From positions 1,836,992 to 1,900,991 of the forward strand of contig MZZL01000409.1 in the NCBI GenBank assembly GCA_002749535.1: a stretch of DNA of 64,000 nucleotides, read 5' to 3'. A model generated the notes under the pieces. It did not search any database and was not told the DNA's origin. It saw nothing but the letters and a program-made list of their open reading frames with translations. The DNA comes from Apophysomyces variabilis (Eukaryota; Mucoromycota; Mucoromycetes; Mucorales; Mucoraceae). The position numbers and the translations under genes are program-made. Shown here in pieces: positions 20,590 through 22,701 of this stretch (position 1 is its first letter; every line of letters begins with the position of its first letter).

Positions 20590-22701
20590 TTAGAGTCTGC
20601 CTCGGAGATAGTTCCCCATGAAGAGGGCCCACCCATACACAATGCCCAGCGCACAATAAACACTCGTAACTAATAACGGTAGGAATTCAAGCTTTTCAGC
20701 AAAGATCCACCCATGGAGTACGCCTGTGTACAACTGAAGTCCCACTAGGCCCATCATATAATACGTTTCAATTGGATGTAAAAGTCCCTTCAAGGGTCTA
20801 TGAAGAAGATCAGCTAGGTTTCCTGCTAAAAGCAATGACGATTCTGCTTACACTGATATACAATGAGCCAGTCCAGGAATCACAGTGAAAAACCACAAGA
20901 GAGTTAGGCAGACTTTAACAGGCGTTTCTAATGATAGGTCACTGTAAGCGGAGGACCCAACATGACTTACTCTTCTTTGATTTCAATTACCTGCTGTATG
21001 AAATAAAAGCGGAAATAGAGAACAAATGCCTGCTCCACTTAGGATAATCAGTAACCGTAGATGAATCTTGCTATTAGCAGCCGTCAAACTGAAAAGACGA
21101 AGTGTGAATATTTTCTTTTCATTCTTGGATGAAGCCTACCCAAACGGAATCAACACGATCATAATGGCTTTCTCGTGCACATGCCAACCAAAGAGATAGG
21201 AAGCAAAGCTACACAACGTCAAGGACGCTAAAAAGCTATCAAAAGTCGGTTTCCGCCACAGTGCCTGCAGTACGATCTAAAGGATATAATAACGGCGATG
21301 ACATTGGAACAAGTCGTACAAAAACCTTTGCTGTTTGTTTACCAGTTGCACTAACACTGTGATTATCAGCGTATGGATGGCTTCCACCGTGGGCAACACT
21401 GCAAACTGTGTATCACCAACGTATCCTCGTGTCATAGAGCCCAGAGCTGCATTATCCAGTGACCATCCCATCTTTTTGCTCACTATAACGGGCTTACAGT
21501 TGAGCTTCTTTCTTCTCTTCCCTCACACAAATACTTACCTAAAATGAGGATACGATCTGCCGCGGCGTACAAAGCCCAAAAATTGGGAGCCCAGTAGGCA
21601 TGACACAAGCCACGAGTGAATGGGAACAGTCTCTGAGCAAGATTTGGCAGCTGGCCAAGATATAAAAACGGACCTAAGGAGATTCCAAATACGCCTATCA
21701 CACTTCCTCCTAATGTCAGAAAGCGCTGGAAGGAGAAATGGCGGGAACCATCTAATTCACAGGATATTAGCCTCGGAGGAAAAGCGCGTTGGTTAAGCTT
21801 TACCGTCTTTGGAAACGAAACAGTAAGCTTTGAGAAGATAAACAAAATAAGCAGGCGCCATGTATAGATAGATGTGCTTGAAATTAAGCAAAACGGCGAA
21901 GACGATGCCCGACATCAGCAGGTTGCCCTATCCCAATGCTATCAGATCTTATACTGTCTATAGTTTATGTTACCCTTTTCGCTTCAACAATGGAAAGAAC
22001 TAGTATACCGTAGAGAAGACCGTTGTACTGAAAATGCATATGTGTTTCATAAATCATAAGGACAATGACGTAGATCATCAACAGGACAAAGGCCAGCAGA
22101 CACAGTAGATATAAAAAAGAAAAAGGATATGATCAACGATGAAAATACCGGGATGCAGTACAATGGATGCCACTATGAGCCAATGCGCGTATTTCGAACC
22201 GAAGAAAGAGATATATCTTGGAACGCCCTGTAAATCTTTTTGCACATTTGCTTTGTTCAGTAAATGTTTACCTATTCGAAGCCCAGAAAAGGACCAGCTC
22301 GCTTGCAATAACAGTCAGCCTCTGGAAAAGAATCGTGGCATCACTTTGATAGTTCAGATTCGTGATTTCCAGCATGGCAGGGTCGGCCAACGGCGCGAAC
22401 ATGCTTAATATTTTCTCGAACCAGGCAAAAAAAGGCGGGTAGTCCAATGTCCATTCTGAAGTATCCTTTCGTATGTCTCAATTCCCGGATAGTATTCTTC
22501 CCTTTCCTAACCTCCTCACCTCGATATACCATTTGGAAATGGGAAGACTGTGCGTGATGGCGAGCCAATTGCGGTGAACCTCGAAATCCGTTGATCGACT
22601 ATACAGGGCATTAAAAGACTTAGCCAAGCCATTGCAAAGACTTACTAAGCTGGTACCAAGAGTAGCTTTATGAGGGTACTAATGGCAAGCAGATCCCTCA
22701 T
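20590..22701 (-). CDS. ALG8: Dolichyl-P-Glc:Glc1Man9GlcNAc2-PP-dolichol glucosyltransferase (ALG8)
   Basis: Adds the second glucose to the lipid-linked oligosaccharide in the ER membrane before N-glycosylation. Twelve exons total 1497 nt (498 residues): 22646-22701, 22520-22598, 22272-22465, 22131-22216, 21974-22041, 21804-21927, 21539-21751, 21343-21482, 21140-21276, 20991-21088, 20862-20927, 20590-20825. Diagnostic ALG8 segments recovered in order: [118 protein letters not shown]. The protein is a multi-pass GT57 membrane enzyme with the usual N-terminal DFEVHRNW loop. One intron (22042-22130) is of AT-AC type, and one (20826-20861) is only 36 nt. Identification is firm; the last small intron is the least certain join. 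Confidence 0.93.
22042..22130 (-). other. U12-type AT-AC intron in ALG8
   Basis: On the minus strand the intron begins ATATCCTTTTT, the exact consensus of minor-spliceosome AT-AC donors, and ends GAAACAC. A TCCTTA element, resembling the U12 branch-site core, lies at 22057-22062, about 15 nt from the end. Removing it joins GTTGATC to ATATGCATTTTCAG and yields [10 protein letters not shown], the conserved ALG8 motif; the downstream frame stays open. No GT-AG pair restores this motif. Confidence 0.85.

Follow-up and report, generated by a model that had tools for sequence, protein, structure and literature searches.

A very probable U12-type AT-AC intron in the ALG8 gene of Apophysomyces variabilis, with sequence evidence for a minor spliceosome to remove it

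Introns of the minor, U12-dependent class have been published for Rhizopus and Phycomyces (PMC2846911) and, also among early-diverging fungi, for Rhizophagus, Basidiobolus, Spizellomyces and Neocallimastigomycetes (PMC2846911, PMC10639083), so the class of finding described here is already known. A first-pass annotation of the present DNA held that, in fungi, reports of them are concentrated in early-diverging lineages, and the host, Apophysomyces variabilis, a Mucorales fungus, fits that. The U12-type AT-AC introns of Phycomyces and Rhizopus, which are of the same fungal order, share the donor rule and the AT-AC and GT-AG subtypes seen here, and are EST-supported in those species (PMC2846911). 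For Rhizophagus irregularis, likewise early-diverging, all four minor snRNAs and the 20K, 25K, 35K and 65K proteins are reported, with 205 minor introns, and 249 in Basidiobolus (PMC10639083), whereas here there are a few dozen strict-pattern candidates. Blastocystis minor introns have, like the present set, an AT-AC majority (77%), but that organism is a stramenopile and its median minor intron is 39 nt (PMC10639083), while the candidate introns described below are 56–93 nt long, in a search that covered only about that range. Within the Mucorales, Lichtheimia corymbifera has a U12 with a reduced third stem and a U6atac with a divergent second half; U4atac was not detected there, one copy being mentioned in other basal fungi (PMC4133162), whereas here there is a candidate that can pair with U6atac. 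For A. variabilis NCCPF 102052, the genome paper gives U4atac and U12 as not present and names, among minor components, U6atac and ‘U1’ (sic) as those that it found (PMC5604411). Among the matches listed in open-licence PMC, no description of U12-type introns in Apophysomyces was found, nor, in the best 15 of 237 papers on minor introns, any mention of ALG8.

The DNA analysed, a stretch of 64,000 nucleotides of contig C95 termed the window, contains on its minus strand, at 22701-20590, a gene that is modelled with 12 exons in a stop-free frame of 492 aa. The first-pass annotation had called it ALG8, and that identity is borne out by PF03155, which covers nearly the full length of the predicted protein (residues 9-482, E 1.2e-166), by the presence of the VDHxHFQYNG motif, and by the names of homologues, some of which are called Glc1Man9GlcNAc2 alpha-1,3-glucosyltransferase. 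The 12 exons proposed earlier also stand, though the product is 492 residues long and not 498. Among the best 120 of 4216 homologues, the closest are 70–74% identical and, except for the unnamed P0002 and P0019, carry the names of Mucorales fungi. The exon model is as follows.

22701-22646, minus strand: ALG8 exon 1
22598-22520, minus strand: ALG8 exon 2
22465-22272, minus strand: ALG8 exon 3
22216-22131, minus strand: ALG8 exon 4, ending ...IVD + C
22041-21974, minus strand: ALG8 exon 5, beginning AT + MHFQYNG...
21927-21804, minus strand: ALG8 exon 6
21751-21539, minus strand: ALG8 exon 7
21482-21343, minus strand: ALG8 exon 8
21276-21140, minus strand: ALG8 exon 9
21088-20991, minus strand: ALG8 exon 10
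20927-20852, minus strand: ALG8 exon 11
20797-20590, minus strand: ALG8 exon 12

Ten of the 11 introns are GT-AG and 46–66 nt long, the least certain boundary of the model being the acceptor of intron 3 (22271-22217), which was picked to preserve the frame. The exception is intron 4. Just upstream of ALG8 and on the same strand, 23301-23800 appears by eye to be the 3′ end of a gene for a protein kinase like the PKA catalytic subunit, and a tRNA gene at 41847-41928, minus strand, is the sole Rfam match in the window at gathering score.

22042..22130, minus strand: ALG8 intron 4, predicted U12-type AT-AC, 89 nt, phase 1 after residue 138 (sequence, exon model)
22120..22130, minus strand: its U12-type 5′ splice site, ATATCCTTTTT, with the potential to pair with U11 5′ AAAAAGG and U6atac AAGGA
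22057..22064, minus strand: its branch-site element, TGTCCTTA, pairable at 8/8 bases (one G-U) with UAAGGAUA of this genome’s U12
22042..22043, minus strand: its 3′ splice site, AC (sequence, exon model)

The minus strand from 22130 to 22042 reads ATATCCTTTTTC...GAAACAC, so that the start in ATATCCTTTTT and the AC end noted at first pass can be read directly, and the donor is a perfect ATATCCTTT that matches RTATCCTT with C at +5/+6. The TCCTTA that had been placed about 15 nt before the intron end lies at 22062-22057, exactly 15 nt from it, and by the same measure the branch-to-acceptor distance is 5–17 in the 28 frame-joining genome candidates considered below. The branch site, TCCTTATG, agrees with TCCTTRAC at 6/8 bases, the last two differing, and the eight-position fit of TGTCCTTA to the U12 of this genome may offset that weak 3′ half. 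A computed duplex of the branch region with U12, at -15.4 kcal/mol, lies partly outside the known helix and is not relied on.

How much freedom is there in the choice of these ends? All excisions of 20 nt or more between exon 4 and exon 5 were tried, with donor starts 30 nt or more into exon 4. VDHxHFQYNG is restored by eight register-equivalent excisions, and of these only 22130..22042, with AT-AC, has recognised termini, none of the eight having GT-AG or GC-AG ends. The length of 89 nt is itself out of frame, and the spliced product aligns without gaps through the junction and its flanks to a 73%-identical Mucorales homologue (alignment with the best 120 of 4216 homologues). We put at roughly 95% the probability that intron 4 is a true U12-type AT-AC intron and that A. 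variabilis removes it with a complete minor spliceosome. The sequence itself gives the splice signals and the reading frame, snRNA genes with their complementarity, and the pieces of protein genes; from these we infer RNA expression and such splicing. At the donor, U11 would pair with CCUUUUU, and at the branch site U12 would pair with UGUCCUUA. U4atac would deliver U6atac, whose AAGGA box would then take over the donor, and exon 4 would be joined to exon 5 with the motif region restored.

Could extra DNA instead be sitting in a once contiguous exon, whether through misassembly or as a pseudogene lesion? Read in the frame of exon 5, the 89 nt are indeed open and hydrophobic, but the ten other introns are intact, as is the frame of all 492 aa, and a donor and branch element would fall at these places in extra DNA only about once per million placements. 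This figure comes from placing an 89-nt stretch at every position of the window on both strands, 127,760 placements in all, with rates that count intron 4 itself: the rate of [AG]TATCCTTT as donor in any of eight registers is 3.8e-4 and that of TCCTTA close to the end of the stretch 3.0e-3, for a product of 1.1e-6, and the only joint matches were intron 4’s own eight registers. We regard such extra DNA, from either cause, as extremely improbable. Equally hard to credit is an AT-AC intron handled by the major spliceosome, after the manner of sodium-channel intron 21. U2-type AT-AC introns do exist, though they have G at +5 (PMC2831892), whereas intron 4 has C there, as well as the full ATATCCTTT and a branch element complementary to U12.

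A reading that gives more pause, though we still consider it very unlikely, is that an ordinary U2-type GT-AG intron, such as 22137-22028, has been mis-parsed as AT-AC. TTTTCAG at 22034-22028 is a good-looking U2 acceptor, the excision keeps frame, and its product, with LLI followed directly by YNG, is just what is seen in the annotated proteins of two relatives, Fennellomyces P0018 and Zychaea P0022. However, it deletes VDHMHFQ, and the motif is lost in every one of the 13 frame-keeping GT/GC-AG excisions that are 30 nt or longer. [VI]DHxHFQYNG is intact in 90/120 aligned homologues (best 120 of 4216), and in 21 of the remaining 30 (from Calcarisporiella, the Mortierella group and two chytrids) the sole difference is VDN in place of VDH. 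P0077 has HFQYNS in place of the motif end and the chytrid P0108 a different stretch here. The other seven models are broken at the motif, and all are from Mucorales: besides P0018 and P0022, these are Spinellus P0021, in which nine other residues replace the VD ahead of HIHFQYNG, then Circinella P0025 and Mucor velutinosus P0017, both with wrong sequence up to HMHF/HIHF, and lastly Absidia cylindrospora P0042 and a partial Mucor plumbeus model, P0039, which are without the motif region. The breaks in P0017, P0018, P0021, P0022 and P0025 could come from gene finders that do not recognise an AT-AC intron in this position, and the broken public Mucorales models at or around the intron 4 junction are probably gene-finder errors, though the homologues are annotated proteins and an intact motif in them says nothing on the presence of the intron. 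Such genes would come out damaged from any gene finder that takes no account of AT-AC introns, and the broken models in relatives are consistent with this.

A true U12-type intron 4 calls for its machinery, and the genome was searched for it as 38.70 Mb in 126 contigs, against a published 39.39 Mb in 431 scaffolds, small scaffolds seemingly having been left out.

C94:2022278-2022412: U11 gene, 71.2 bits with the Rfam model, 5′ end AAAAAGGGC, Sm-like site AUAAUUUUUU
C75:833744-833608: U6atac gene, 63.1 bits with the Rfam model, containing GAAAGGAGAGAA and AAGGACGGAA
C95:3559713-3559514: U12 gene, 47.0 bits, below the Rfam gathering cut-off of 53, with AUGAGUAAGGA and an Sm-like site
C95:2871311-2871433: U4atac candidate, 33.4 bits, E 0.0085 (cut-off 53), with AAUUUUUGGA and a 3′ hairpin

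The U12 has an insertion of about 60 nt relative to the Rfam model, and its 3′ stem-loop carries GCCUACUUUGC, presumably the 65K-binding loop. For the U11, U12 and U6atac searches the named control genomes are bacteria and archaea, whose silence says little. In the 5′ region of the U4atac candidate, UUCUCAAGGGGA is exactly complementary over 12 nt to UCCCCUUGAGAA of U6atac (stem II), and after it UGCCAAA complements UUUGGCA of U6atac over 7 nt (stem I), the order of the stems being correct. A 12-nt complement was reached by none of 5000 shuffles of the candidate’s 65-nt piece, while the U4atac/U6atac duplex energy was matched by 8/1000 shuffles and is not decisive alone. The Rfam U4atac model gave no match in the genome at E 0.001, and the locus appeared at E 10, a threshold at which some match occurs in 11/14 control genomes too, none over the cut-off. 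The best Rfam label of the locus is major U4 (28.7 bits) and not U4atac. Major U4 is, however, a separate locus of 100.1 bits, whose longest complement to U6atac on its own strand is 5 nt (against a U6 core from outside this genome it likewise reaches only 5 nt, an uninformative control), and the major-U4 search, which scores only the best first-look candidates, did not return the candidate locus. The identity of the U4atac candidate therefore rests on its exact complement to U6atac. As read from these loci, the RNA set of the minor spliceosome looks complete, and the U12 gene and the U4atac candidate contradict the published absence in this species. Two hand-made patterns for the U4atac/U6atac helices gave 3 and 4 matches, none snRNA-like by eye. 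A second U6atac-like sequence, at C70:461565-461505 on the minus strand, scores 28.7 bits, below cut-off, and is without the 3′ half; it is a pseudogene or an unusual variant.

The search for proteins covered 35K, 65K and 25K. Human 35K finds two pieces on C87 about 325 bases apart, 333558-333647 (67%) and 333973-334212 (64%), the other matches among the 13 being weaker or shorter, and a query joined from this gene gives, in PDB, 139 bits with human 35K vs 63 bits with U1-70K. The C-terminal RRM of 65K has its best match of 12 at C95:3053273-3053581 (45% identity), and the best PDB match of that piece is RNPC3, at 76 bits vs 62 bits for RBM41. PF18036, the ubiquitin-like domain of 25K, has two adjacent over-cut-off pieces on C75, one of which reads over a stop codon, and a weaker third match on C94. 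U11, U12, U4atac, U6atac, 35K and 65K had been named at first pass as components to look for, and each has turned up, U4atac as a candidate through its pairing with U6atac; with the 25K pieces and dozens of candidate introns, the prediction of a retained minor spliceosome holds at the level of sequence.

What else might such a spliceosome act on? RTATCCTT followed by TCCTTRA at 31–61 bases matches the genome 66 times, repeat copies included (one family of GTATCCTTTAAAG elements and one of GTATCCTTACT genes), against 10 for the reversed-pattern control, and does not return ALG8 intron 4. One match, C95:1858210-1858278, is spurious, with a ‘donor’ that spans the end of ALG8 intron 8. From 91 loci (30 returned by the pattern, 31 intron regions and others), 60 distinct donor-to-branch strings were drawn, leaving out three repeat copies (C96, C118 and C113:176808) and the spurious in-window match. 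RTATCCTTT is present in 42/60. In 28 of these 42 (20 AT, 8 GT), excision to the fitting end, AC after an AT start and AG after a GT start, connects frames that stay open for 15 codons or more to either side, a count that is the best of several ends and frames, without a chance control. Among 19 splice products of the 28 that were tested, a Pfam domain runs above cut-off across the junction in 9 (7 AT, 2 GT): Glyco_transf_22 in L012, Npa1 in L014, MIOS WD40 in L031, ChAPs in L033, Ion_trans (twice) in L034, TatD in L070, PP2C in L074 and Gaa1 in L085. A below-cut-off domain crosses it in one (L030), a domain lies beside it in three (L013, L018, L068), and no Pfam family was found in six (L008, L023, L072, L075, L077, L080). 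A. variabilis would thus have dozens of candidate substrate introns, one of them in an N-glycosylation gene. Elsewhere in the window, 54474-54541 on the plus strand, ATATCCATCGT...TCCTTAAC...AC, is U12-like but joined no clean frame and was rejected as an intron.

In the strict set of 32 candidates with RTATCCTTT and TCCTTRAC, 23 are of AT type and 9 of GT type by sequence only, whereas Phycomyces has 8–9 AT-AC vs 8–12 GT-AG (PMC2846911), and U12DB has 204 AT-AC vs 565 GT-AG clusters, with single genomes at 1:3 to 1:1 (PMC2831892). Against the U12DB clusters the Fisher p is 2e-7, and against 1:1, near which Phycomyces lies, the binomial p is 0.02, but the excess is only suggestive because the strict pattern may favour AT-AC introns and takes in some false ones. 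An AT-AC-rich set of survivors would make sense, since GT-AG minor introns turn into the major type more readily (PMC2831892), and, if true, it bears on how minor introns get lost.

Where the Rfam U12 consensus has GUAAGGAAAA, this U12 has GUAAGGAUAA, with U instead of A at nucleotide 25. In human branch sites the usual base before TCCTT is T. As human U12 G23-A24 pair with branch-site UC (PMC4980772), nucleotide 25 lies opposite the base that precedes TCCTT. A purine occupies this position in 25/32 of the strict candidates, a set that was picked after the first result was known, though by the base at the opposite end of the motif, vs 47/109 unrelated TCCTTRA sites (p 6e-4). T occupies it in 5/32 vs 45/109 (p 0.01), a background in which some loci overlap and a few sites may count twice; among all ATATCCTTT candidates a purine stands there in 20/28 (p 0.01). 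The Trichinella AT-AC introns shown have T there in 3/3 (PMC2846911), with other bases elsewhere. The concurrence of U at nucleotide 25 with a facing purine is suggestive. Tentatively, and at somewhat less than even odds for the whole, nucleotide 25 would have gone from A to U in this Mucorales lineage and the branch sites would have followed, TTCCTTAAC becoming RTCCTTRAC in a naturally occurring compensatory change at the U12-branch-site helix, with mostly AT-AC introns surviving, as expected if GT-AG ones preferentially converted to the major type. No report of such U12/branch-site covariation in Mucorales was found among the matches listed in open-licence PMC. If the two features co-occur across the order, they would provide a natural test of the helix between U12 and the branch site.

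Two of the candidate loci have features of their own. L034 (C78:972651-973396, minus strand) is an ion-channel gene in which an AT-AC and a GT-AG intron, both apparently U12-type, lie about 700 bases from each other; the T-type calcium-channel gene of fly and human has an AT-AC U12-type intron (PMC2831892). L067 and L074, the latter the PP2C locus, have similar starts, MGQ.LSEPVVDK...VSAMQGWR, and both have the donor GTATCCTTT after MQGWR together with TCCTTRAC, perhaps marking a U12 intron that predates the gene duplication.
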